DNA of 22,706 bases from a virus. Positions within the stretch are counted from its first letter, which is position 1. The number at the start of each line of letters is the position of its first letter. Shown here piece after piece: positions 3,709-17,986 of this stretch. The DNA lies in the IMG/VR virus record IMGVR_UViG_3300042549_002669, positions 1 to 22,706 of that record, one strand, 5' to 3'. The position numbers and the translations under genes were made by a program. The notes under the pieces are model-generated. The model did no database searches, had not been told where the DNA came from, and was given only the letters and a program-made list of their open reading frames with translations.

Positions 3709-5160
3709 ATGGCATCATTAACAGAAACAGCAAAGGCTGTGCTAGAGGGTAAGACTCTACAGGAAGGTTATGGAAGTTCACCTTATCCATCAGTGGGTAA
3801 TGGTGGTACATCAAATCCAGATCCTGTAGATCCATCTACCGCTTCCACAGGTAATGCTAAAACACTACGCCCTGGTTCAAAAATGAAAGAAGATCGTAAG
3901 CGTCCACAGAATGGTGCAGGCGCCGCTGATAATAGTTCATTAGAAAACCAGCAGATCGATCTTGGTGGTCAGACACCAACATCATTGCCATCAGGCAATC
4001 TTGGTGCTGTCGCTGCATCACCAGTTGGCAAAGATTCATCACGTTCTGGTCAAGCATCTGTCAAGTCAGAGCCTACAAAGAAACTTTCTGCAATGGCCGA
4101 AGAGATGGAAGATGAATCAGAAGTCTTTGAAGAAGAAACATCAATGAGCATTTCTGATCGTGTTAAGGCACTCAAGGAAGCCCGTAAGCATTCTAAGAAG
4201 GATGAAGACGAGGATGAGAAGCACGAAAAAGAAGAGAAGCATGAAAAGATGGATGAAGAACTAGAACTTTCCGAAGAACTAGAAGACTTCATTGCAGAGG
4301 CCATCGAAGCAGGTCTTAACGAAGAAGAAATTCTTGCTGCCATCGATGAAAACTTTGAGTTCATTTCCGAGGAAGAAGAACTTGAAGAAGAATACGAAGA
4401 CGCTCTTGATTCATACGAAGTTGACATGTCCGAGCATGTTGAGGCACTTCTAGAAGGTGAGAATCTTTCTGAGGAGTTTCATGCTAAGGCCACCACAATC
4501 TTCGAAGCCGCTGTAAAGGCAAAGTTAGAAGAAGAAGTTGCTCTACTAGAACAGGCATATGCCGAGACGCTAGAAGAACGTGTTTCAGAAATAATGGAAC
4601 AACTATCAACAGACGTTGATAACTATCTAAACTACGTTGTTGAACAGTGGATTGAAGAAAATGAAGTTGCTGTTGAATCTGCACTACGTTCAGAACTAAC
4701 AGAAGATTTCATTTCAGGTCTACGTTCTCTATTTGCAGAACACTATATCGATATTCCAGAAGAAGAAGTTCCTGTAGTTGAAGAACTTTCAGCATCCGTT
4801 GAGGAACTAGAAGCAAGACTTAATGAAGAAATTGAGAGAAATGTTGCACTAGCATCAGCACTCAATGAATCACGCAAGATTGAACTCGTTTCTGCTGTTT
4901 GTGAAGGTCTTACATCAACTCAGACTGAAAAACTAAAAGGTCTAGTTGAGAATGTTGACTATACAAACGATGATGAGTTTGTTGAAAAGATTTTAACACT
5001 AAGGGAGAGCTATTTCCCAACTGCTGTTAAGAATAATGAAGATGTTCTTGACCGTGTTGACACCGCCAAGGCACCTGGCATGATTAATGAGTCCGTTGAA
5101 AACCTAAATGGTCCAATGGCTAATTATGTCAAGGCAATTGGCAGAACTCTTCCAAAGTAA
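3709..5160 (+). CDS. 22: Prohead scaffold (core) protein gp22
   Basis: The gene encodes 483 aa, considerably longer than T4 gp22. It forms the internal scaffold on which gp23 assembles and is later destroyed by gp21. Residues 1-125 are low-complexity, rich in Gly, Ser, Pro and Thr, and probably disordered. Residues 130-235 are extremely acidic with Lys/Glu/Asp repeats. Residues 240-420 are predicted long helices or coiled coil, also Glu-rich. Residues 420-483 form a C-terminal domain that may contact the capsid. Several I/L-x-E sites are available for gp21. The strong ribosome site AAAAGGAG precedes the ATG. The position between gp21 and gp23 makes the identity secure despite low sequence conservation in this family. 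Confidence 0.88.
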   Translation: MASLTETAKAVLEGKTLQEGYGSSPYPSVGNGGTSNPDPVDPSTASTGNAKTLRPGSKMKEDRKRPQNGAGAADNSSLENQQIDLGGQTPTSLPSGNLGAVAASPVGKDSSRSGQASVKSEPTKKLSAMAEEMEDESEVFEEETSMSISDRVKALKEARKHSKKDEDEDEKHEKEEKHEKMDEELELSEELEDFIAEAIEAGLNEEEILAAIDENFEFISEEEELEEEYEDALDSYEVDMSEHVEALLEGENLSEEFHAKATTIFEAAVKAKLEEEVALLEQAYAETLEERVSEIMEQLSTDVDNYLNYVVEQWIEENEVAVESALRSELTEDFISGLRSLFAEHYIDIPEEEVPVVEELSASVEELEARLNEEIERNVALASALNESRKIELVSAVCEGLTSTQTEKLKGLVENVDYTNDDEFVEKILTLRESYFPTAVKNNEDVLDRVDTAKAPGMINESVENLNGPMANYVKAIGRTLPK

Positions 5161-5191
5161 TTTAGTTAAACAAAGAAAGAAGGAAACTAAA

Positions 5192-6559
5192 ATGTATCTT
5201 ACAGAAAATCTAGAGTCAAAGTGGTCACCAGTTCTCGACCACGACGGCCTAAACCCAATTAAGGATTCATATCGTCGTGCTGTTACTGCCGTTATTCTTG
5301 AGAATCAGGAAAAGGCAATGGCAGAAGAAGGTCGTCAGCTAAACGAAGCAGCGCCAACTAACGCTGGTGGTGGTCTAGGTACAGGAACAAACGTCGCATC
5401 ATACGACCCAATTCTTATCTCCCTAGTTCGTCGTGCCCTTCCAAACCTAATTGCTTATGACGTTTGCGGCGTTCAGCCAATGACCGGTCCAACCGGCCTT
5501 ATCTTCGCAATGCGTTCACGTTATAAGTCAATGAGCGGCACCAATGCTGGTGTTTCTGGTTCAAACGAAGCACTATTCAACGAAGCCAATACAGCATTCT
5601 CTGGTCAGAATAATGCATTTGGTTTCACAAATGTTGGTTCACATCCAGATGCAAACAACAACCCATTTGCTGATGCTACACTAGCTGCTAACTCCTATCC
5701 AACAGGAACAGGTATGTCAACAGCACAGGCAGAAGCACTTGGTGACGCTGCTGGCAACATGTTCAACGAGATGGCCTTCTCAATCGATAAGGTTACCGTT
5801 ACTGCTAAGTCACGTGCCCTCAAGGCAGAATACACCACTGAACTTGCTCAGGACCTTAAGGCAATTCACGGCCTTGATGCTGAGACAGAACTAGCAAACA
5901 TTCTCTCAACAGAGATTCTTGCTGAAATCAACCGTGAAGTTATCAGAACAATCTATCGTTCTGCTACTCTCGGTGCTCAGTATGGTGTTACAACTGCTGG
6001 TACATTCGATCTTGACACCGACTCAAACGGTCGTTGGTCAGTTGAGAAGTTCAAGGGTCTCATTTTCCACATCGAGCGTGAATGTAACGCTATCGCCAAG
6101 GCAACCCGCCGTGGCAAGGGTAACGTTCTGATCGTTTCTTCAGACGTTGCATCTGCAATGGCTATGGCCGGTGTTCTTTCATACACCCCACAGCTATCAG
6201 CCGACCTAACCGTTGACGATACTGGCAACACCTTCGTTGGTATGCTACACGGCCGTATTAAGGTTTATATCGATCCTTACTTCGGTGGTTCAGCAAACGG
6301 CGACGAACTAGTTACCGTTGGTTATCGTGGTGCATCACCATTCGACGCTGGTCTATTCTACTGCCCATACGTTCCACTACAGATGGTTCGTGCAATCGGT
6401 CAGGATACCTTCCAGCCAAAGATTGGCTTCAAGACACGTTACGGCATGGTTGCAAACCCATTCGCAACTCTTGCAGGTGACGGCGTTGTTGGTACCCGTG
6501 ATGTTGCTAATCAGGCAAACATCTACTACCGCATTTTCAGAGTAAGGAACCTTACATAA
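5192..6559 (+). CDS. 23: Major capsid protein gp23
   Basis: The gene encodes 455 aa. The start at ATG 5192 is chosen because AAGGA (5180-5184) lies 7 bp upstream; an earlier in-frame ATG at 5108 would overlap gp22 and lacks support. The hallmark segment VQPMTGPTGLIFAMRSRY (94-111) is a signature of T4-like gp23, the HK97-fold shell protein. Residues 50-52 are Leu-Asn-Glu, matching the gp21 cleavage rule and near the T4 cleavage position, so the mature protein would begin at Ala53 with about 403 residues. The gene favours CTA, TCA and CCA codons, as gp22 does. It ends just before a strong terminator and is probably co-transcribed with gp22. Confidence 0.96.
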   Translation: MYLTENLESKWSPVLDHDGLNPIKDSYRRAVTAVILENQEKAMAEEGRQLNEAAPTNAGGGLGTGTNVASYDPILISLVRRALPNLIAYDVCGVQPMTGPTGLIFAMRSRYKSMSGTNAGVSGSNEALFNEANTAFSGQNNAFGFTNVGSHPDANNNPFADATLAANSYPTGTGMSTAQAEALGDAAGNMFNEMAFSIDKVTVTAKSRALKAEYTTELAQDLKAIHGLDAETELANILSTEILAEINREVIRTIYRSATLGAQYGVTTAGTFDLDTDSNGRWSVEKFKGLIFHIERECNAIAKATRRGKGNVLIVSSDVASAMAMAGVLSYTPQLSADLTVDDTGNTFVGMLHGRIKVYIDPYFGGSANGDELVTVGYRGASPFDAGLFYCPYVPLQMVRAIGQDTFQPKIGFKTRYGMVANPFATLAGDGVVGTRDVANQANIYYRIFRVRNLT

Positions 6560-6567
6560 AATCAAAT

Positions 6568-6595
6568 ACTTATACACACTTATAAGTGTATAAGT
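6568..6595 (+). repeat. Nested palindrome downstream of gp23
   Basis: ACTTATACAC (6568-6577) and GTGTATAAGT (6586-6595) are perfect inverted repeats of 10 bp around an 8-base loop. The inner part CACTTATAAGTG (6577-6588) is itself a perfect 12-bp palindrome. It sits directly before the gp23 terminator and could be an RNA 3'-end stabiliser, a protein-binding site or a relic of the adjacent homing endonuclease insertion. The structure is seen; the role is unknown. Confidence 0.6.
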
Positions 6596-6601
6596 CAAAC
6601 T

Positions 6602-6629
6602 GGGCGGGGGTTATTCCCCGCCCTTTTTT
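6602..6629 (+). terminator. Rho-independent terminator after gp23
   Basis: GGGCGGGG (6602-6609) pairs perfectly with CCCCGCCC (6616-6623) around a 6-base loop and is followed by six T residues (6624-6629). This is a textbook terminator for the late head operon. The convergent endonuclease gene on the minus strand ends inside its loop. Confidence 0.93.
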
Positions 6630-7183
6630 GATGACCAAAACTTTTCTTTTCTTCTTTTACTAACCGACTCTGCAATCTTTCGTTTTGTTTCTTCACTCAT
6701 AACTCTTGGATTCTCAGCAAGATACTTTTTAGCACTTTCGCTCATTTTCTTTTTTGTTTCTTCGGTTCTTTTAGCACCGGTATTTGCCTGTACCATACAT
6801 TCCACTCTACTTCTTCTTTCCTCAGGAGTCATAGCGTCAAATTGCTTTCTTTTAGTTTCTTTCATTTTCTCAATAGCGGTTTCATTTAGTGACTTGGCAT
6901 ACATCTGGTTATAACCATTAGGCCATATAGTATCAAAATCGTGTATGTAATGGTTTTCCATAAAATCTACAAATGTTTGTTCTGGACCGTCCCCTAATTC
7001 ATCCAACACCTCATAGGTAAAAGAATCCTCACCATACTTTCTTAATGCCCTATGAAAATAGTAATCAGAATCTTTTTCCATTGCTTCATGTATATGATTT
7101 CTTCTTCTTTGTTCCGGATGTTTTGTTTGTCCGATATATCTTTTACCGTTTACGTTGTTTTTCCAAGAATAGATAATAGTCAT
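6611..7183 (-). CDS. Free-standing GIY-YIG homing endonuclease with NUMOD3-like repeats
   Basis: The gene encodes 190 aa on the opposite strand to all neighbours. The N-terminus IYSWKNNVNGKRYIGQT (4-20) is the GIY-YIG signature; Arg27/28 and Glu76 (in MENHYI) match the catalytic Arg and Glu positions. Two helix motifs near the C-terminus (TGAKRTEETKKKMSESAK, 135-152, and a similar one around 162-178) resemble NUMOD3 DNA-binding modules of Seg-type and intron-encoded endonucleases. Such enzymes cut related phage genomes and spread by repair. The ribosome site GAGGTG lies 5 bp before the ATG at 7183. The stop codon lies in the loop of the gp23 terminator, so its last residues are encoded by the hairpin. 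Confidence 0.9.
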   Translation of the reverse strand: MTIIYSWKNNVNGKRYIGQTKHPEQRRRNHIHEAMEKDSDYYFHRALRKYGEDSFTYEVLDELGDGPEQTFVDFMENHYIHDFDTIWPNGYNQMYAKSLNETAIEKMKETKRKQFDAMTPEERRSRVECMVQANTGAKRTEETKKKMSESAKKYLAENPRVMSEETKRKIAESVSKRRKEKFWSSKKGGE

Positions 7184-7266: not shown

Positions 7267-7794
7267 ATGGCTATAGAATCGTTTACAACTAATATACCAC
7301 AGAATACTAGTCTATTACAGGTCAACAAGTTTACCTTTTTGATTCCAGATAAACCGTATCTAAAGTATTTCTGTCAGACTGCTTCTATACCATCTGTATC
7401 AACCACAGAAATTACTATACCAACCCCATTTTCTAATACATATAGACATGGTGAAAAACTAAATTATGAACCTCTTACAATCACCACTTTGATTGATGAA
7501 GATTTGCAAGTATGGCATGAAACATATAAATGGTTATCATCATTAACACGACCCGAATCATTCGAACAGTATCCAAGAAAGTCACAAAGAGATCAAACAC
7601 CTTTATACTTTGATGGGTATCTAACAATCAATACAAATGCCAATAAACCTAACATTCGTATCAAGTTTTTGAATTGTCATCCTATTTCTGTTGGTATGAT
7701 CAACTTTGATACTAAATTAGATGCAGAAACCATTCCTACCTGTGACATTACTTTCCGTTATGATTTGTTTGAAGTTGAAAGATTGACTTCCTAA
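7267..7794 (+). CDS. T4 gp19-like tail tube family protein
   Basis: The gene encodes 175 aa; ATG 7267 follows GGAGG at good spacing. Segments such as NKFTFLIPD near the N-terminus, ASIPSVSTTEITIPTPF, and a region of the type LTITTLIDEDLQVWHETYKW match the pattern of the T4 gp19/Phage_T4_gp19 family, beta-rich proteins forming the inner tail tube or its initiator. The length is close to T4 gp19. In T4 the main tube gene lies upstream of gene 20, so this copy after gp23 could be the tube protein itself, a paralogue or a tube-initiator-like protein. The family call is moderately secure; the exact role is not. Confidence 0.65.
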   Translation: MAIESFTTNIPQNTSLLQVNKFTFLIPDKPYLKYFCQTASIPSVSTTEITIPTPFSNTYRHGEKLNYEPLTITTLIDEDLQVWHETYKWLSSLTRPESFEQYPRKSQRDQTPLYFDGYLTINTNANKPNIRIKFLNCHPISVGMINFDTKLDAETIPTCDITFRYDLFEVERLTS

Positions 7795-7811
7795 TCAAAC
7801 TGTTGTATAAT
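7783..7811 (+). promoter_or_regulatory. Sigma70-like promoter for uvsY-uvsW operon
   Basis: TTGACT (7783-7788) and TATAAT (7806-7811) are separated by exactly 17 bp. The -35 box overlaps the end of the tail tube gene. Transcription would start near 7818, giving a short leader before the uvsY ATG at 7835. Confidence 0.75.
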
Positions 7812-7834
7812 GATGTTTTGGAAATGGAGTGAAT

Positions 7835-8278
7835 ATGAAACCACCGGTAAAACTTGATGATCTGCGTGAAGAATGGTGCTCTAATGATTCTATCATTGAT
7901 GAAACTGAACCAGGCAAGGAACTAATCCGTGTTTCTGCTTTACACGGTAAGTATCTCAATATCCTTTCTTATCATCGTATGCTCTCACGTAAATATGTAA
8001 AAGAGTATGAAAATCTCAAACTGATTAAAACTCAATATTACTTAGGTGAACTATCTTTTGAAGAACTGCAAGAGCGTGGGTGGGAACCAGAACAGAGAAA
8101 CATATCCAAACCATCTCTTCCATTGTATATGGATGCCGATGAGGACCTTACTAATCTGCTAATCAAAAAGATGATACAGGATGAGATCGTTGATCTCTGC
8201 ACCCTTATAATCAAAGAACTAAATAGTAGAGTATATGCCCTCCGTGCATTTATTGAATGGAAGAAGATGACTTCGTAA
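7835..8278 (+). CDS. uvsY: UvsY recombination mediator
   Basis: The predicted protein is 147 aa and highly helical. It loads UvsX recombinase onto single-stranded DNA coated with gp32. The start at ATG 7835 is preferred over GTG 7829 because GGAG (7826-7829) lies 5 bp upstream. Similarity to T4 UvsY is low but visible: N-terminal LDDLREEW, a central YYLGEL segment, and C-terminal ... ALRAFIEWKK corresponding to the T4 tail. T4 UvsY is of similar length. It is immediately followed by uvsW, as in T4, with stop and start overlapping (TAATG), which strongly supports the call. Confidence 0.85.
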   Translation: MKPPVKLDDLREEWCSNDSIIDETEPGKELIRVSALHGKYLNILSYHRMLSRKYVKEYENLKLIKTQYYLGELSFEELQERGWEPEQRNISKPSLPLYMDADEDLTNLLIKKMIQDEIVDLCTLIIKELNSRVYALRAFIEWKKMTS

Positions 8279-9753
8279 TGACAGATTTTATCCTACATAA
8301 CAAGAATGAGGCATACCTTCATGTTAAATGTGATGAAGGTAAAGCATGGGAACTCCGTGATGCCTTTTCTTTCCGTCCTCCTGGGTTTCAGTTTGTTCCT
8401 TCTTACAAGCAGAAACTCTGGGACGGATATTTGCGTCTATACTCACCTAACAATGGGTTGATATATCGTGGTCTAGGGCCACATGTAACAAAATGGATTG
8501 AAGATAAAGGTTATACCTATGAATATGCCGACGAAGACCTTGACACCTCATTCTCTATTGAAGAGGCTAAAGAGTTTGTTGAAAAACTTAACCCAAAGCA
8601 CCCTCCTAGAGATTACCAGATGGATGCTTTTGTTCACGCTATCCGCAGTAAGCGTCGTATTGTTATTTCCCCTACTGGCAGCGGCAAGTCTTTACTACTA
8701 TATCTTGTATGCAATTACCTTCTCAAGCAAGGTAAACGAGGACTATTAATCGTACCTCGGTCAGCACTTGTTGAACAGATGTTTACAGACTTTGAGGACT
8801 ATTCTGTTAACAATGGTAAAGATATGTTCAAATATTGTTGGAGAGTTTATTCTGGTAGAGATAAACATTCTCAGCATCCTATCATCATATCTACATGGCA
8901 GTCTTTGCAAAGATTACCTAAAGAATATTTCGAACAATTTGATTACGTTATTTGCGATGAGGTGCATCAGGCACAGGCGAAGGCCCTGACAGATATCGTT
9001 TCTAAATGCACAAAGGCAGAATACCGTCTTGGTGTAACAGGCACACTATCGGGCGCCAAGGCTCATGAATGGGTTCTAATCGGTCTATTCGGACAGATAT
9101 ACAAGGCAACAACTTCTGCTGAGTTGATGAAGAAGAAACAATTGGCAGAATTGACAATCAAATGTCTTCTATTGAAATATAGTGAAGAAGAATGTCAGTA
9201 TATGAAGACTGCATCTTATCAAGAGGAAATTGAATATATCATTTCTAATGTTGAAAGAAATAAGTTTATTGTAAATCTGGCACTTTCATTAGAAGGTAAC
9301 ACTCTAATGCTATTCAACTATGTTGATAAGCATGGCAAGGTCCTACATGACATGCTAAATAAGAAAGTTAAAAACGGTCGAAAAGTATTTTTTATTCATG
9401 GAGGAACAGATGTTGAAGACAGAGAAGAAATTAGACGTATCCTTGAAACGGAAACTAATGCCATACTTGTTGGCAGTATTGGTGTTCTCAGCACTGGGAC
9501 TAATATTGTCAATCTATCCAATGTTATATTCGCATCACCTTCCAAAAGCAAAATTAGGAATCTACAATCTATCGGTCGAGGGCTTAGAGTATCAGAGACT
9601 AAACAATCCGCCACTCTCTTTGATATTGCCGATGACTTTAAGTGGAAGTCTAGAGACAACTTCACCCTTAAACACTTTTTCGAGAGGATTAAAACCTATA
9701 GTGAAGAAAAGTTTAAGTTCCGCATATACAAAATTAACATGAAGGACAGATAA
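8278..9753 (+). CDS. uvsW: UvsW recombination/R-loop helicase
   Basis: The protein is 491 aa, close to the T4 length. UvsW is an SF2 helicase that unwinds branched DNA and R-loops and shifts replication from origin-dependent to recombination-dependent initiation. The start at ATG 8278 (overlapping the uvsY stop) is preferred to the in-frame ATG 8257, because the T4 protein begins near the equivalent of MTDFILHNK. Residues 1-105 match the N-terminal UvsW substrate domain (LRDAFSFRPPGFQF, LWDGYLRLY). Helicase motifs: Walker A PTGSGKS (132-138), DEVH (227-230), GVTGTLSG (252-259) and a C-terminal QSIGRGLR motif VI. All key motifs are intact. Confidence 0.95.
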   Translation: MTDFILHNKNEAYLHVKCDEGKAWELRDAFSFRPPGFQFVPSYKQKLWDGYLRLYSPNNGLIYRGLGPHVTKWIEDKGYTYEYADEDLDTSFSIEEAKEFVEKLNPKHPPRDYQMDAFVHAIRSKRRIVISPTGSGKSLLLYLVCNYLLKQGKRGLLIVPRSALVEQMFTDFEDYSVNNGKDMFKYCWRVYSGRDKHSQHPIIISTWQSLQRLPKEYFEQFDYVICDEVHQAQAKALTDIVSKCTKAEYRLGVTGTLSGAKAHEWVLIGLFGQIYKATTSAELMKKKQLAELTIKCLLLKYSEEECQYMKTASYQEEIEYIISNVERNKFIVNLALSLEGNTLMLFNYVDKHGKVLHDMLNKKVKNGRKVFFIHGGTDVEDREEIRRILETETNAILVGSIGVLSTGTNIVNLSNVIFASPSKSKIRNLQSIGRGLRVSETKQSATLFDIADDFKWKSRDNFTLKHFFERIKTYSEEKFKFRIYKINMKDR

Positions 9754-10518: not shown

Positions 10519-10619
10519 TTTCGCTTCGCTCAACCGTGAGCATTTGGTTATATTTGGTGGTGGTCTTGGTGAAGATTATACAAAAACTTAAAAAACATGT
10601 CAAGCCCCAAAATTTATAT

Positions 10620-10647
10620 TTGCCAAAAATTTTTTTTAGTGTATAAT
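10620..10647 (+). promoter_or_regulatory. Sigma70-like promoter for gp55 operon
   Basis: TTGCCA (10620-10625) and TATAAT (10642-10647) are separated by 16 bp. The expected transcript start near 10654 lies 24 bp before the gp55 ATG and rules out the earlier in-frame ATG at 10597 as its start. Confidence 0.65.
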
Positions 10648-10677
10648 GTCTTTAAATGCTTAAAGAAAGTTCTGAGA

Positions 10678-11277
10678 ATGGTAAAGAAAAAGAATCATTA
10701 TGTAGATAACGAAAAGTTTCTAGAAGATATTATGAAGTATAAAGAGAAAGTAAAGTATGCCTCTGATAATGGTCTAGAGAAACCTAGAGTCTCAGAATAC
10801 TCAGGTAAGTGTATATACTTGATTGCGGAAAACCTGTCACATAAGCCTAGGTTCATGAACTATTCATTTCGTGATGAACTTGTGTCTGATGCCATAGAAA
10901 ACTGCTTTTTATATTTCGATAACTTCAATCCTGAGATATCTAAAAATCCCTTTGCATACTTCACACAGATAATCTATTTTGCCTTTCATCGTCGTATCTC
11001 AAAAGAGGAAAAGAATAGATATATAATGTATAAAAAGTTTCAAGAAGGTATTCTAGAAACAACTCAACAGTTTGATGGTTTTAATGTTGAGAGTCACTCA
11101 CTACTTTTAGACAGTGCTGACAATCATGTTATGAATACACAAATGTATGATAACATTAATGACTTCATTAGAAAGTTTGAAGATAGGGAAGCGGCAAAGA
11201 AAGAAAAGAGAAAACAAGCAAAAGAAGGACTTGAAAAGTTTGTAGGAGATGATGATGAAGGAAGAGAATCAGTTTGA
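10678..11277 (+). CDS. 55: Late-transcription sigma factor gp55
   Basis: The predicted protein is 199 aa, slightly longer than T4 gp55. It is a minimal sigma-70 family factor that directs host RNA polymerase to late promoters, working with gp33 and the sliding clamp. Residues 62-112 (YSFRDELVSDAIENCFLYF then PFAYFTQIIYFAFHRRISKE) correspond to the sigma region 2 core with the aromatic -10 recognition helix. The start at ATG 10678 is chosen because an upstream Met at 10597 precedes the promoter; the ribosome site is weak (AAAGAAAG). The C-terminus is Lys/Glu-rich, and the clamp-binding tail is not obvious to me. Confidence 0.9.
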   Translation: MVKKKNHYVDNEKFLEDIMKYKEKVKYASDNGLEKPRVSEYSGKCIYLIAENLSHKPRFMNYSFRDELVSDAIENCFLYFDNFNPEISKNPFAYFTQIIYFAFHRRISKEEKNRYIMYKKFQEGILETTQQFDGFNVESHSLLLDSADNHVMNTQMYDNINDFIRKFEDREAAKKEKRKQAKEGLEKFVGDDDEGRESV

Positions 11278-11464
11278 GGTACCATTTCAGGTTCAAACCC
11301 TGATTACCTCTTTATCAAACAAAAACGAGAGAGTGCATATACGTGGTAACTATCGTATGAGATTAGAAGGTATAAAGCGAGCAATCGATAATGCTATTCT
11401 AGAGTATGATAGAGAGATGGGTACCGCACCACAAAAAATGTTTTATCCGAAAGGAAAACGCTAA
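11255..11464 (+). CDS. Small conserved T4-like phage protein
   Basis: The predicted protein is 69 aa, overlapping the end of gp55. Three tandem ATG codons occur (11249, 11252, 11255); the third is best placed, 6 bp after GGAG (11245-11248). The sequence (VPFQVQTLITSLSN, then NYRMRLEGIKRAIDNAIL) is a compact helical protein of a kind I recall downstream of phage sigma genes, without a known function. Its stop overlaps the next start as TAATG, so translation is probably coupled to the acyl-CoA dehydrogenase. Confidence 0.65.
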   Translation: MKEENQFEVPFQVQTLITSLSNKNERVHIRGNYRMRLEGIKRAIDNAILEYDREMGTAPQKMFYPKGKR

Positions 11465-13143
11465 TGAAATATACAGCACCAGTCGATTCAACTCTATTCT
11501 TACTTCGTGATGTTCTAAAGTTTGACCATGAACTAACAGAACCTATCTTGACAGAAGCAGCAAGACTATGTGAAGAAGTTATTGCTCCTACTAATCAAGA
11601 AGGCGACCGCATAGGTTGTCATAGAAGTGACATAGATGGTAATATCAAAGTTCCTTTTGTGTTTCATGAACCTTGGAAGAAATTTAAAGAAGGTGGTTGG
11701 ATTGGTTTATCAGTTCCTGAGGAGTATGGCGGACAAGGCTTACCATATGCACTTGCAAGTGCTATCAACGAGTTTGTATCCTCGTCTAACATGGCTTTTT
11801 CTATGTATCCTGGGCTTAGTCGTGGAAATATCCAGGCACTCCTCGAAGTAGCAAATGAAGAACAGAAGCGAACATTCATTCCTCGTATGGCATCGGGCGA
11901 ATGGACTGGCACGATGAATCTCACTGAACCACATTGCGGAACTGATCTTGGTTTGATTAAGACAAAAGCAGTTCTTAGTCCACTAGTGAACGAGAAACTT
12001 GGTGAGTGTTATGTTCTAGTTGGTCAGAAGATTTTCATTTCTTGTGGTGAACATGATCTAGCAGACAATATTGTGCATCTAGTTCTAGCTCGTATTCAAG
12101 GCGATCCAGAGGGAACGAAGGGTATCAGTTTATTTGTAGTTCCTAAGATTTTATCTGATGGAAAACCCAATAGCGTTTCGTGTGGATCAATTGAACATAA
12201 GATGGGCATTCATGGTTCGTCAACTTGTGTCATGAACTATGAGGGCGCAGTAGGATATCTTGTTGGCGAACGCTGCAAGGGTCTCAATGCCATGTTCATT
12301 ATGATGAATGAAGCAAGACTTGGTGTTGCTGTTCAGGGTCTATCACAATCAGAACTGGCGTATCAGAATGCTCTATCGTATGCTAAAGAACGTATTCAGA
12401 GTGCTAAACTCACGGATCCAAAAGGCAAATCAGTTGCCATTATCAATCATCCTGATGTTCGTCGTATGCTTATGGATATTCGTAGCATTAACGAAGCTGC
12501 TAGACTTCTGGTATTGGAAGCGGCGATGCTTTGTGAAGATAAAAGCGATAGTGCCCAAGATCGTTTAGGTCTACTCACTCCTATTCTTAAGGGTGTGCTA
12601 ACAGATTATGGATTTGAGAATGCTGTCAAAGCACAGCAAGTCTTCGGTGGTCATGGTTACATCAAGGAATGGGGCATGGAGCAGATTGTTCGTGACGCTC
12701 GTATTGCCCAAATCTATGAGGGTGCTAATGGTATTCAGGCACTAGACCTTGTTGCTCGTAAGTTACCTAAGAATATGGGGCGTGCTGTTCGTAATTTCTT
12801 TGATGATACAGAAGACCTAATCACCAAGGCATATAATAAGGACCTTCATGTTATTGTTCAACCTTTAACTGTTGCTAGAAACGATTTAAAGATTGCAACA
12901 GAATGGCTTGTGAATAACGGATTAAAGAATCCTAACAATGCTGGTTCTGCTTCATATGACTACATGAAGTTGTTTGGATTGGTGCTGCTTGGGTTTGCTC
13001 ATGTTCGTATATGTATGGCTACTGATGATAAAGAGCGACACAACAATGCACTTTATTTTATGCAGCGTATTCTTCCTGAAACATATATGTTACTTAATCG
13101 TATCAAGGCAGGAAGCGATACAATGATGAATGTAGAGTTTTGA
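11464..13143 (+). CDS. Acyl-CoA dehydrogenase, DmdC-like (FAD-dependent)
   Basis: The gene encodes a full-length 559-aa flavoenzyme that introduces a trans-2 double bond into an acyl-CoA, passing electrons to an electron-transfer flavoprotein. Residues 1-20 (KYTAPVDSTLFLLRDVL) match the N-terminal extension typical of the long acyl-CoA dehydrogenases. MNLTEPHCGTDLG (151-163) and QVFGGHGYI (392-400) are FAD-site motifs. Glu419 in QIYEGANGIQ is the expected catalytic base. The C-terminal ~120 residues form the extra domain of this subfamily. The pattern is closest, from memory, to DmdC (methylmercaptopropionyl-CoA dehydrogenase) and other proteobacterial acyl-CoA dehydrogenases. No frameshift or lost motif is seen. 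It lies between gp55 and gp47, with the start overlapping the upstream stop, so it is an integral operon member. The substrate cannot be decided here. Confidence 0.95.
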   Translation: MKYTAPVDSTLFLLRDVLKFDHELTEPILTEAARLCEEVIAPTNQEGDRIGCHRSDIDGNIKVPFVFHEPWKKFKEGGWIGLSVPEEYGGQGLPYALASAINEFVSSSNMAFSMYPGLSRGNIQALLEVANEEQKRTFIPRMASGEWTGTMNLTEPHCGTDLGLIKTKAVLSPLVNEKLGECYVLVGQKIFISCGEHDLADNIVHLVLARIQGDPEGTKGISLFVVPKILSDGKPNSVSCGSIEHKMGIHGSSTCVMNYEGAVGYLVGERCKGLNAMFIMMNEARLGVAVQGLSQSELAYQNALSYAKERIQSAKLTDPKGKSVAIINHPDVRRMLMDIRSINEAARLLVLEAAMLCEDKSDSAQDRLGLLTPILKGVLTDYGFENAVKAQQVFGGHGYIKEWGMEQIVRDARIAQIYEGANGIQALDLVARKLPKNMGRAVRNFFDDTEDLITKAYNKDLHVIVQPLTVARNDLKIATEWLVNNGLKNPNNAGSASYDYMKLFGLVLLGFAHVRICMATDDKERHNNALYFMQRILPETYMLLNRIKAGSDTMMNVEF

Positions 13144-13144
13144 T

Positions 13145-13327
13145 ATGGATATTGATGACTTCGTTAAAGAAATAGATCAGAATATTGAATGGTTTTGTGA
13201 CAAGGTAGTCGAACCTGTTCCTCAAAATGTAGAGGATAAAGATAAAGTTATGAAAAGGATGATACAATTAGGATGGTTGAGACAATCAGAATATGAAACG
13301 TATCAAATGGTTACCAAAGAGGATTGA
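13145..13327 (+). CDS. Small acidic hypothetical protein
   Basis: The predicted protein is 60 aa, starting 1 bp after the acyl-CoA dehydrogenase stop. It is acidic at the N-terminus (MDIDDFVKEIDQNIEWF) and helical, with no cysteines beyond one and no membrane segment. I do not recognise a family. It fills the gap tightly between two operon genes, supporting that it is translated. Confidence 0.55.
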   Translation: MDIDDFVKEIDQNIEWFCDKVVEPVPQNVEDKDKVMKRMIQLGWLRQSEYETYQMVTKED

Positions 13328-13409
13328 CGAAATCATTTTTCTGGTATATACTGTTGTTAAGAATATCCTAAATGACATCAAGGAAAAATTATGGCAAAGA
13401 TTGCATTAG
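13293..13409 (+). CDS. Possible 38-aa basic amphipathic peptide overlapping gp47 start
   Basis: An ATG at 13293 opens a 38-codon frame (MKRIKWLPKRIDEIIFLVYT at the start) that overlaps the end of the previous gene and the first 19 bp of gp47. It covers the otherwise empty 13328-13390 stretch. The peptide is basic with a hydrophobic centre. No good ribosome site is visible, so it may be chance. Confidence 0.25.
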   Translation: MKRIKWLPKRIDEIIFLVYTVVKNILNDIKEKLWQRLH

Positions 13410-14467
13410 TTACTGATACACACGCAGGTGTTCGTAATGATAATCCTGCATTTCAAAATTATCAGAAACGTTGTTGGGAATGGTTCTTTGATTACATTGA
13501 TGCTAACAGTATCAAACATGTCATTCATCTTGGTGACATTTATGATCGTCGCAAGTATATTAATTTTATGTCGGCGAAGCGACTTCGTGAGGACTTTCTA
13601 GAACCTCTACAGGAGCGAGGCATTGAAACACATATTGTTCAAGGTAATCACGATTCTTACTACAAAGATACACACGAAGTTAATGCTCTTGAGGAAATTA
13701 TCTCTGGAAGATATGATTACATTAATACTTATAGTGTCCCTAGTATCATCAGTATTGATGGGTTTGATATTCAACTGATGCCATGGATTACCGAATCAAA
13801 TAAGAAACAAGCATTAGAAGCAATTGATAAACCAAAATCATCAATACTCATGGGACATCTTGAGTTGAATGGTTTTACTATGCATAGAGGATTGATAGCA
13901 GACCATGGCATGGATAGAATATCTTTTGATAAGTTTGATCACGTTTATTCTGGTCATTATCATCACCGTTCTACGATTGGTAATATCAGTTATATTGGTG
14001 CCTTTGCAGAATACACTTGGCACGATTATAACGATTCTAGAGGATTTTCTATCTTTGATACGGACACCAGGGTTCTAGAGTTTATTCAGAACCCATATAA
14101 GATTTTTAGAATTGCTCGATATGATGATGTAGACAATCCTAATATTGTAGAGAAGATTCAGCAAACCGACTTTAGCAAATATAAAGATTGCTTCGTTAAA
14201 GTTGTAGTCATAAATAAGAGTAATCCATATGCTTTCGATCTTCTATTTGATTCTATCTACAACGCAGGCCCTTTGGATATTCAGATAGTGGAAGATCCAA
14301 CTATTCTTTTGGACAATGAGGAAGATACGGAAATTGATGAAGCGGAAGATACTGTAACGATTCTAAAGAAGTATATTGACGGGTTGACACTCCCGATTGA
14401 GAATGTAAAAATGAAGCAGTTTATGATTGACGTTTATAATGAAGCGTTACAAGTTGAAACAGTATAG
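13391..14467 (+). CDS. 47: Recombination nuclease subunit gp47 (SbcD/Mre11-like)
   Basis: The gene encodes 358 aa, about the T4 length. It is the manganese-dependent phosphoesterase of the gp46-gp47 complex, which resects DNA ends for UvsX recombination and degrades host DNA. Phosphoesterase motifs are intact: DTHAG (Asp9, His11), LGDIYDRR (Asp49), QGNHDS (Asn86, His87), MGH (His156) and SGHYHH (His189, His191). The start follows AAGGA at normal distance. In T4 genes 47 and 46 are close neighbours; here ftsH is placed between them, and 46 follows. Confidence 0.95.
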
Positions 14468-14478
14468 GAAACATTGAT

Positions 14479-16263
14479 ATGAAAAAACTAATACCTTGGG
14501 TTGTGTTCGTTGTAGTTGCTATGGGATTATATTTCATGGCAGTACCACAAGAACATCATTTAACAAATGAAATTTCATATTCGGACTTTGTATCTCAGGT
14601 CGAAAGTAATAATGTTCATGATGTAACAATCAGTGACTATCAGTTGACTGGTCACTTTCAGAAAGATAATAGGGCATTTAGCACAAATGTTGCTGGACTC
14701 TCCACCCTATTACCAAAACTAGAAGAACATAAAGTTAATATTACAGTTAAGAATGTTAGCGAGAATGCTTTTTGGACAGGCATTTTAGTTAATATTTTCC
14801 CTGTTATATTGTTCTTTGGACTATGGATGTATCTGACACGCCGGGCAGGTGGTGCCGCCGGCGGCGCAATGGGATTTGGTAAGTCTAAAGCCAAGTTGTT
14901 AACCGAATCAAGTGGCACCAAGACATTTGATGATGTTGCTGGTGTTGATCAAGCAAAAGAAGACCTACAAGAGATTGTAGAGTTTCTACAAAACCCAAAA
15001 AAGTTTGAACGCCTCGGCGGTAAGATTCCAAAGGGTGTCCTACTAGTTGGTCCTCCAGGCACAGGCAAGACATTGCTTGCTAGAGCCGTTGCAGGTGAAG
15101 CAGGTGTGCCGTTCTTTAGTATTTCTGGTTCTGACTTCGTTGAAATGTTCGTAGGTGTTGGTGCATCCCGTGTTCGTGATATGTTTGATCAAGCAAAGAA
15201 AAATGCTCCTTGTATCGTCTTTATTGACGAGATTGATGCTGTTGGTCGTTCCCGTGGTGCTGGCATGGGCGGTAATGACGAGCGTGATCAGACACTAAAC
15301 GCCATGTTAGTAGAAATGGATGGTTTCAATGATAATCAGGGTATTATTGTTATTGCTGCTACTAACCGTGTCGATGTGCTTGATAAGGCTCTCACACGAC
15401 CTGGGCGATTTGATCGTCAAATCGCTGTTCCAAATCCCGACTTCGTAGGTCGTGAAAAGATTCTAAAGGTTCATACACGCAAGGTACCGCTAGGTGCTGA
15501 TGTTGACCTTAGAACAGTTTCTAGAGGTACGCCTGGTTTTTCTGGTGCTGATCTTGCTAACCTTGTAAATGAAGCCGCTCTACTAGCAGCAAGACGTTCA
15601 AAGCGTATTGTCACATCACAAGAGTTTGAGGATGCTAGAGATAAGATTCTGATGGGTGCGGAACACAGAACTCTCCTTATGACCGAAGAAGAGAAGAAGA
15701 TGACTGCCTATCATGAAGGTGGACATGCTCTTGTTTCTCTAAACATGGAAGGATCAGTCCCTATTCATAAAGCAACCATTATACCTCGTGGTCGTGCTTT
15801 GGGTATGGTTCAGTCTCTTCCTGAGCGTGATCAAATCTCACAGTCATATGAAGAAATGGTGGCACAACTTGCTATGGCAATGGGCGGCCGTGTAGCCGAA
15901 GAGATTATTTTTGGTGAAGATAAGATTACTTCTGGTGCTTCTGGTGATATTCAGCAGGCTACAAAACTTGCCCGTGCCATGGTCACACAACTTGGTTTCT
16001 CGCCACTCTTAGGAAGAATGGCATATGATGATCCAAATTCCGATATGTTCCGTGGTCCTAAGATTGCCGAAGATACTCAGAAGATTGTTGATGTGGAAAT
16101 CAAAAGACTTGTAGAAGAAGGATATCAGACCGCCAAAAAAATCCTCACCGAGAAGAGAAAAGACCTTGACACACTAGCACAAGGTCTGCTAGAATATGAA
16201 ACATTGTCCGGAAATGAAATCAAGGACTTGTTACAAGGAAAGAAACCAACAAGAGAATTTTGA
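14479..16263 (+). CDS. ftsH: FtsH-type membrane AAA+ zinc metalloprotease
   Basis: The gene encodes a complete 594-aa FtsH, slightly shorter than typical bacterial FtsH. It is an inner-membrane hexameric protease that unfolds and degrades membrane and regulatory proteins. Residues 5-22 and ~98-120 are the two membrane segments flanking the periplasmic domain. A Gly/Ala linker (123-134) follows. Walker A is GPPGTGKT (191-198), the pore motif Phe-Val-Gly is at 224-226, Walker B is IVFIDE (246-251), and arginine fingers are Arg307 and Arg310. The zinc site is HEGGH (412-416) with the third ligand Asp490 in GASGDIQQ. All catalytic residues are present, so it should be active. It starts 11 bp after gp47 and ends 1 bp before gp46. 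Likely acquired from a bacterium (inference). Confidence 0.97.
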
Positions 16264-16264
16264 T

Positions 16265-17986
16265 ATGATTACATTCCATGTGATTAGATATAAGAACTTT
16301 CTATCATCTGGAAATGTGTTTACCGAAATTGAACTAGACTCCCATAAGAACACATTAATTATGGGTCACAACGGCGCAGGGAAGTCCACCATTCTGGACG
16401 CCCTGTGCTTTGTTTTGTTCGGTAAGCCATTTCGTAAGGTGAACAAGGGTAACGTTGTTAACTCTATCAATACCAAACAGTGTGTGACTGAGATTGAGTT
16501 TTCAATCAACAACCGCCGTTATAAGGTCGTGCGTGGAGTCAAACCAAATGTGTTTGAAATCTATATCGACGGAGTTATGATAAACCAAGATGCGGCCGCC
16601 AAGGACTATCAGGAACATTTAGAGAAGAACATTCTCCGCATGAACTATAAGTCTTTCACACAGGTCGTCATTCTAGGTTCTGCTTCTTTTGTTCCTTTTA
16701 TGCAGTTGTCCGCTAATGATCGACGGGCGGTTATTGAGGACTTGTTAGACATTCAAATCTTTACATCTATGTCTACCGTGGTCAAGAATCGACTACAGAT
16801 CAATCGTGAAACATTGGAAAAGAACCGTGTTATTCTAACATCTAAAGAAGAAAACAAGTCATACATTGAGAAGACTTTACGCTCTCTTAAGTCTAACAAT
16901 GAAGACAAACTAAAAGAACTAGAAGCAAAGAAAGAACGACTAGAGTTTGACCTTGATGTTCAGAGACAAGGTGTAAAGAATCGTCAGGCGCTCCTTGACA
17001 AGGCCCTTGAAAGAGACCTTGATCTATCACCGTTTAAGACAAAGCATTCAAAGTTGGTATCATTTCGTGCCAAGATGGAAGCCAATCGAGATAAGTATGT
17101 CAAGGATACAGACTTCTTTGCGGCATCAGGTACATGTCCGACATGCCGTCAGGACATTGCACCTGAGTTTTCTAAGAAGATGATTGAGGACAACGATAGA
17201 AAGATTCATGAACTTTCTGACGGACTAAATAAGGTTGAACAACAAATCGACTCCGTTTTGGTAGAGATTGATGAGATTGAAAAGATTCTCACAAATATTA
17301 GCAACATTAAAATGGACTTGGCATCTGCTAAGTCTTCCTATAACAATGTTGCTAATAATCTTCGTCAAGTTGTGGATGAGATTGAGAACTTTGCTCTTTC
17401 GGACAAAACAACCCAAGAGTCAGAACGACAACTCACCAACATCGAACATGATATTTCCACCCTCCAAAAGGAGAAGGAGACCCTTCTAGATGACAGACAG
17501 TATATTGACTTGGCCTCCACGTTGCTCAAAGACGGTGGGATTAAGACACGCATTATTAAGCAGTATCTCCCCGTTATCAACAAACATATCAATAAGTACC
17601 TGGGTAAGCTCGGTTTCTTTGTCAATTTCAACATCAATGAATCATTTGAAGAAAGTATCAAATCTCGTTATAGAGACGAGTTCAGCTATCACAATTTCAG
17701 TGAGGGCGAGAAGCTTCGGATCGACTTGGCAATCCTCCTCACTTGGCGTCAGATTGCTAAGATGAAAAACAGCGTAAACGTCAACATTCTTGTGTTTGAT
17801 GAGATCCTTGATCGTGCGATGGACTCAACAGGTATTGATGAGTTCATTAGAATTATGTGGGATATTGGTCAAGAAGGTACAAATGTTTTTGTTATCTCTC
17901 ATAAAGATACAATGGTTGATCGATTCCAAAGAACATTAAAGTTTGAAAAGATAAAAAATTTTTCTGTCTTATCAAAGGATCAGTGA
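16265..17986 (+). CDS. 46: Recombination nuclease subunit gp46 (SbcC/Rad50-like ATPase)
   Basis: The predicted protein is 573 aa, about the T4 length. The start ATG 16265, 1 bp after ftsH, is chosen because the T4 protein begins at the equivalent of ITFHVIRYKNF; the longer frame from 16196 overlaps ftsH. Walker A GHNGAGKS is at 34-41. A long coiled coil carries the zinc hook Cys-Pro-Thr-Cys at 291-294. The ABC signature FSEGEKLRIDLA starts at 478, and Walker B ILVFDEILD is at 508-516. With gp47 it processes DNA ends for recombination-dependent replication. The KPFRKVNKGNVVNS segment is strongly T4-like. All motifs are intact. Confidence 0.96.
   Translation: MITFHVIRYKNFLSSGNVFTEIELDSHKNTLIMGHNGAGKSTILDALCFVLFGKPFRKVNKGNVVNSINTKQCVTEIEFSINNRRYKVVRGVKPNVFEIYIDGVMINQDAAAKDYQEHLEKNILRMNYKSFTQVVILGSASFVPFMQLSANDRRAVIEDLLDIQIFTSMSTVVKNRLQINRETLEKNRVILTSKEENKSYIEKTLRSLKSNNEDKLKELEAKKERLEFDLDVQRQGVKNRQALLDKALERDLDLSPFKTKHSKLVSFRAKMEANRDKYVKDTDFFAASGTCPTCRQDIAPEFSKKMIEDNDRKIHELSDGLNKVEQQIDSVLVEIDEIEKILTNISNIKMDLASAKSSYNNVANNLRQVVDEIENFALSDKTTQESERQLTNIEHDISTLQKEKETLLDDRQYIDLASTLLKDGGIKTRIIKQYLPVINKHINKYLGKLGFFVNFNINESFEESIKSRYRDEFSYHNFSEGEKLRIDLAILLTWRQIAKMKNSVNVNILVFDEILDRAMDSTGIDEFIRIMWDIGQEGTNVFVISHKDTMVDRFQRTLKFEKIKNFSVLSKDQ

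Follow-up and report, generated by a model that had tools for sequence, protein, structure and literature searches.

Introduction

Cyanophages carry photosynthesis genes such as psbA, and the gene described here is comparable in being a host energy gene carried by a phage as a solo enzyme or subunit; it differs in that a step of beta-oxidation, and not photosynthesis, is encoded, and in belonging to phages of the methanotroph type. Closer still are the pmoC-carrying phages of Chen et al. (2020, PMC7674155), the main text of which describes partial acyl-CoA dehydrogenase (ACAD) genes, similar to those of Methylocystis, in LM_1, LM_7, and LM_8, and reads the partial ACAD of the Lake Mendota phages as a possible leftover of recombination and a hint to the host. 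Neither FtsH nor fatty acids are named in that main text. As described there, those phages and ours are alike in being freshwater T4-like phages of methanotrophs, with an ACAD fragment near a partial pmoC in theirs; however, the ACAD gene is partial in LM_1, LM_7, and LM_8, whereas here it is full-length, under selection, forms one clade found on at least 41 contigs, and has a constant order relative to pmoC. Apart from the partial genes in the main text of Chen et al. (PMC7674155), open-access full texts yielded no further description of a phage ACAD in such a setting. A first-pass annotation of this DNA did not know ACADs as usual phage genes.

Three groups of cellular enzymes provide the relevant comparisons. 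Pseudomonas aeruginosa FadE1 (PA0506; 8pns, 8pu5) and FadE2 (PA0508; 8png) share the fold, the domains, and the catalytic glutamate of our enzyme, at ~40% identity, but the latter is phage-encoded, shorter, and without a pathway of its own. DmdC of Roseovarius nubinhibens (6ijc) is the closest solved sequence and has the same domain order, but it is 47% identical, falls in another clade (Roseobacter) in the tree, and lies in a different genomic setting. The best-scoring cellular homologues are the FadE-type ACADs of Methylocystis sp. Sn-Cys and other alphaproteobacterial methanotrophs, at 56-57% identity; these are chromosomal, lie beside a thiolase gene, and are ~594 aa long, whereas the phage clade sits on a long stem.

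The locus

The window, by which we mean the whole stretch of DNA analysed (22,706 nucleotides of IMG/VR record IMGVR_UViG_3300042549_002669), has PHROGs matches to gp21, gp22, gp23, gp19, UvsY, UvsW, gp55, gp47, and gp46, and is thus a T4-like phage setting (Table 1). An AAAGGA motif is found upstream of the ACAD start. The start-stop coupling to a neighbour that had been noted earlier is real, and the partner is the 71-aa ORF. The order gp55, ACAD, gp47 also holds as first annotated, but the 71-aa and 60-aa ORFs intervene, so that the ACAD gene is the immediate neighbour of neither gp55 nor gp47.

Table 1. Features of the window, with two FtsH loci of methanotroph genomes listed last
Feature	Position	Strand	Remarks
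gp23-like major capsid protein	5108..6559	+	phrog_138, E 1.7e-157
GIY-YIG homing endonuclease, between gp23 and gp19	6611-7183	-	also in L216, L253
UvsW-like helicase	8257..9753	+	phrog_16
gp55-like late sigma factor	10597..11277	+	phrog_234, E 7.7e-52
71-aa conserved small ORF, left insertion border	11249..11464	+	conserved in related loci
TAATG stop/start overlap, 71-aa ORF/ACAD	11462..11466	+	relatives lacking the insertion have it between the 71-aa and 60-aa ORFs
Acyl-CoA dehydrogenase (ACAD), FadE-type	11464..13143	+	559 aa, catalytic Glu419
60-aa conserved small ORF, right insertion border	13145..13327	+	conserved in related loci
gp47-like SbcD subunit	13391..14467	+	phrog_100
FtsH ATP-dependent zinc metalloprotease, between gp47 and gp46	14479..16263	+	TIGR01241, 815 bits vs cut-off 600
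gp46-like SbcC subunit	16196..17986	+	phrog_77
Extra FtsH locus L371	G153 C1:3132297-3135193		methanotroph genome
Extra FtsH locus L372	G056 C6:623196-626074		methanotroph genome

The encoded enzyme

The ACAD ORF contains zero internal stops, and the Pfam ACAD N, M, and C-terminal domains, together with the extra C-terminal domain PF12806, all score above their curated cut-offs. The protein is colinear over its full length, PF12806 included, with the long-form FadE1/FadE2/DmdC class. An AlphaFold model (mean pLDDT of 80.5) has FadE2, 6ijc, and FadE1 as its best fold matches. Glu419 aligns with the catalytic Glu441 (E441) of P. aeruginosa FadE1 and is invariant across the 21 phage and 21 bacterial sequences of the alignment, as is the glycine motif; the flavin-site residues are intact. 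These results bear out the first-pass description of an intact 559-aa flavoprotein with a catalytic Glu419 and FAD motifs. It had also listed two extra terminal domains: the C-terminal one is PF12806, but the N-terminal extra is not a separate Pfam domain, the N-terminus of the protein being colinear with 6ijc. Phage versions are ~20-35 aa shorter in loops.

In the alignment, tunnel residues Gly117, Ala284, and Gln291 of the window enzyme correspond to Gly129, Ala295, and Gln302, the open, long-chain filter of FadE1, the equivalent residues of the medium-chain enzyme FadE2 being Met130, Glu296, and Gln303 (PMC11890623). The Gly/Ala/Gln filter is also present in DmdC, and therefore cannot separate FadE from DmdC. 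Filter positions vary among the phage ACADs (Glu284, n=3; Leu284, n=6; His291, n=5) and are invariant in the cellular rows examined; given this variation, the substrate may differ between phages. A possible but doubtful reading is that the changed residues at 284 (Leu/Glu) reflect tuning of some phage ACADs to the lipids of their hosts.

Distribution among phages and selection

Searches of IMG/VR matched 21 loci with the ACAD protein and 38 with its alignment, and members of the ACAD clade of the window (60% or more identity) were counted on at least 41 contigs; many of these contigs are one phage in several samples, and the counts are thus not independent. The phage group of the window was defined by its gp47 relatives, which are 73-81% identical. 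All five records of this group longer than 160 kb contain both the ACAD gene (one copy being cut by a contig end) and FtsH, and three of the five contain pmoC. In the tree, 21 phage ACADs form one phage-only clade with support of 100/100. Values of dN/dS were 0.07-0.24 across 11 pairs of phage ACADs and 0.14 in two bacterial pairs, from which it is concluded that the phage genes are under purifying selection. The ACAD gene lies inside phage genomes, where selection maintains it across phages, and it is in this sense an auxiliary metabolic gene.

Six weaker viral matches (L017, L021, L132, L134, L135, and L136) are not part of the phage clade. Several of them are located where a contig ends, and all six were excluded as probable prophage borders. 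Isolated phage records contained nothing closely related to the ACAD; the best match there was ~43%, and the records concerned look bacterial. The deposited "phage" records of Acinetobacter phage MD-2021a (14-379 kb) are rich in ACADs and have the look of bacterial contigs.

Association with pmoC and FtsH

The first-pass annotation had proposed to look for the same gene beside gp55 and gp47 in other phages. It was recovered from dozens of phage contigs, but at other sites, often near pmoC. On 20 phage contigs, the two genes share a strand and ACAD precedes pmoC by 582-5167 bp; the PmoC in all 20 is of the Methylocystis (alpha) type, with an identity of 88% or more to the query PmoC. The linkage was seen at 20/57 alpha-type pmoC loci versus 0/23 loci of the 58-64% PmoC type; by Fisher's test, p is 4e-4, although contigs of one phage recur among the 20 (which comprise ~13 distinct ACAD types) and the true significance is therefore weaker. 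PmoC proteins of pmo-bearing Beijerinckiaceae genomes are up to 93% identical to the query phage PmoC; isolated phage records gave zero matches to the query. The window, a 22.7-kb fragment, has no pmoC among its ORFs. Two near-complete relatives (G002 and G004) contain ACAD and FtsH without pmoC, and ACAD and pmoC are thus separable. Neither ACAD nor FtsH was found in two other pmoC-phages, G030 (168 kb) and G031 (162 kb). Other cargo near ACAD (L009 527-2086, L006 4614-6844, and L007 5454-7582) includes a tryptophan halogenase, a UDP-sugar dehydrogenase and epimerase, and a DegT aminotransferase.

Besides ACAD, these phages have FtsH as a second auxiliary gene. It is placed between gp47 and gp46 in most related phage loci, and shortly after pmoC in L002, L111, and L159; the corresponding stretch of the cultured Methylophilales phage Melnitz, the nearest by gp47 (42%), is without ACAD and FtsH. 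Neither the ACAD-pmoC link, which is new here, nor the FtsH gene between gp47 and gp46 was part of the first-pass annotation. Two methanotroph genomes contain an extra FtsH (~70% identical to that of the window) with a stand-alone pmoC ~350 bp downstream of it, and this proximity suggests that FtsH may handle pMMO turnover.

Proposed role

The reading we prefer, with a probability of roughly 0.6, is that the gene is an auxiliary metabolic gene for a working FadE-type ACAD of alphaproteobacterial origin, which would speed host beta-oxidation in phages of methanotrophs. The nearest cellular enzymes are FadE-type, and a homologue adjoins a fadA-like thiolase gene; the role in fatty-acid catabolism proposed at first pass is probably correct. 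The identity and context of the gene are shown, and point to a FadE-type ACAD that probably works in phages whose hosts are likely to be methanotrophs; beyond this we infer the mechanism, including its substrate and electron route. The ACAD gene would have been acquired once from an alphaproteobacterium, the best candidate being a Methylocystis-like methanotroph, by T4-like freshwater phages infecting such hosts, and would later have moved between sites within their genomes. During infection, phage ACAD would accelerate the opening step of beta-oxidation in the host, oxidising acyl-CoAs from membrane or storage lipid. Electron transfer from ACADs in general via ETF to ubiquinone is established; in this case, FADH2 would presumably pass electrons to the host ETF, then to ETF-quinone oxidoreductase and ubiquinone, and the acetyl-CoA formed could feed biosynthesis and phage replication. 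In a methanotroph, pMMO could in addition draw on the resulting quinol as its reductant, and it is the PmoC subunit of pMMO that sister phages bring.

The phages would push the first step only. Enoyl-CoA hydratase was found in 0/16 phage records, and the remaining pathway must therefore be that of the host; an AMP-binding protein was found in one of the 16, and a complete phage beta-oxidation set was thus rejected. That one protein, of the acyl-CoA synthetase superfamily (G006 C1:124612-125448), is encoded in the same phage genome as ACAD and pmoC.

An extension of the preferred reading, which we offer as possible but doubtful, is that ACAD, PmoC, and FtsH form a phage-borne set keeping methane oxidation going during infection. 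ACAD would then turn host lipid into quinol, the reductant for pMMO; phage PmoC would renew a labile subunit; and FtsH would clear damaged pMMO from the membrane, by analogy to FtsH and the D1 protein of photosystem II. pmoC-carrying phages are believed to influence the removal of methane from lakes. Should the greater part of one pmoC-phage lineage also have ACAD, some members without pmoC, the reshaping of methanotroph lipid and electron flow may be wider than PmoC alone would bring about, and ACAD would offer an additional marker for phages that infect alphaproteobacterial methanotrophs. That a lone pMMO subunit is carried may mean that the limit is electron supply and subunit turnover and not the amount of enzyme.

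The long-chain type of substrate tunnel in the window enzyme also fits a rather unlikely alternative, in which fatty acids are removed to change or weaken the intracytoplasmic membranes of the host rather than to supply energy. Methanotrophs are membrane-rich, and such bacteria are the presumed hosts. However, the substrate of an ACAD is an acyl-CoA and not an intact lipid, and the enoyl-CoA hydratase and AMP-binding counts given above also speak against remodelling, which is hard to tell apart from energy supply by sequence.

Origin and family assignment

The phage clade sits inside a Rhizobiales grade in the tree, and the cellular enzymes closest to it are Rhizobiales ACADs of the FadE type, among which those of alphaproteobacterial methanotrophs score best; the two top cellular scores are from pmoC-bearing genomes. 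In the unconstrained tree, the fork at the sister group of the phage clade is without firm support. When the phages were held with the methanotroph ACADs, the log-likelihood was 12.7 above that of the free tree, and the AU test failed to reject the grouping (p 0.786); it is the best tree found, short of proof. The thiolase gene beside the methanotroph homologue matches model PRK08242, which points to beta-oxidation.

The gene had initially been annotated as DmdC-type, in which case the enzyme would oxidise methylmercaptopropionyl-CoA in DMSP breakdown. Its best PDB sequence match is indeed 6ijc, the MMPA-CoA dehydrogenase of Roseovarius (E 1e-160), with a fold match of TM 0.86. However, FadE1 and FadE2 have the same fold, and 6ijc, the only characterised DmdC compared, is less similar to the phage enzyme than are the methanotroph FadE-type ACADs and groups with Roseobacter at 100. 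The tree resolves a phage-only clade apart from 6ijc, and forcing the phages to join 6ijc costs 19.8 log units, although the AU test does not reject such a joint clade (p 0.193). No further dmd or DMSP gene was recognised within the window. Freshwater methanotrophs are unlikely DMSP users. We therefore prefer the FadE-type assignment over DmdC, which we judge to be very unlikely.

Insertion site and other cargo

Among 50 related phage loci that hold both the 71-aa and the 60-aa ORFs, the two abut in 49, often via the same TAATG, and the ACAD gene of the window is thus inserted exactly, within an operon. The sole exception (L219) has a 230-aa ORF at the junction, methyltransferase-like by eye. 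That one relative holds a different insert at this site could favour a passenger gene or an assembly chimera without function, but this is highly improbable in view of the dN/dS values and the presence of the gene in all five near-complete relatives; moreover, its nearest relatives are phage genes, and both the phage-only clade and the exact in-operon junction contradict a chimera. With dozens of phage relatives and a clean empty site, the gene is phage-carried, as the first-pass annotation had supposed. Least probable of all is an AidB-like flavoprotein protecting or repairing phage DNA, a role evoked by the neighbouring recombination genes (UvsY, UvsW, gp46, and gp47) but dismissed by a PRK11561 score of 86.7 bits against a cut-off of 545, a structural match to AidB of just 18% identity, and the location of the gene elsewhere in other phages, often near pmoC.

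The gp55-gp46 stretch is a cargo site. Transport of ACAD by a homing endonuclease was considered and rejected because the inserts seen there are methyltransferase-like or 2OG-Fe(II) oxygenase-like by eye, with no endonuclease look. In L219, inserts occupy 6461-7147 and 7323-8001, one of them the methyltransferase-like ORF. In L221, L236, L242, L250, and L257, inserts of ~200 aa separate the 60-aa ORF from gp47, and it is these that resemble 2OG-Fe(II) oxygenases.
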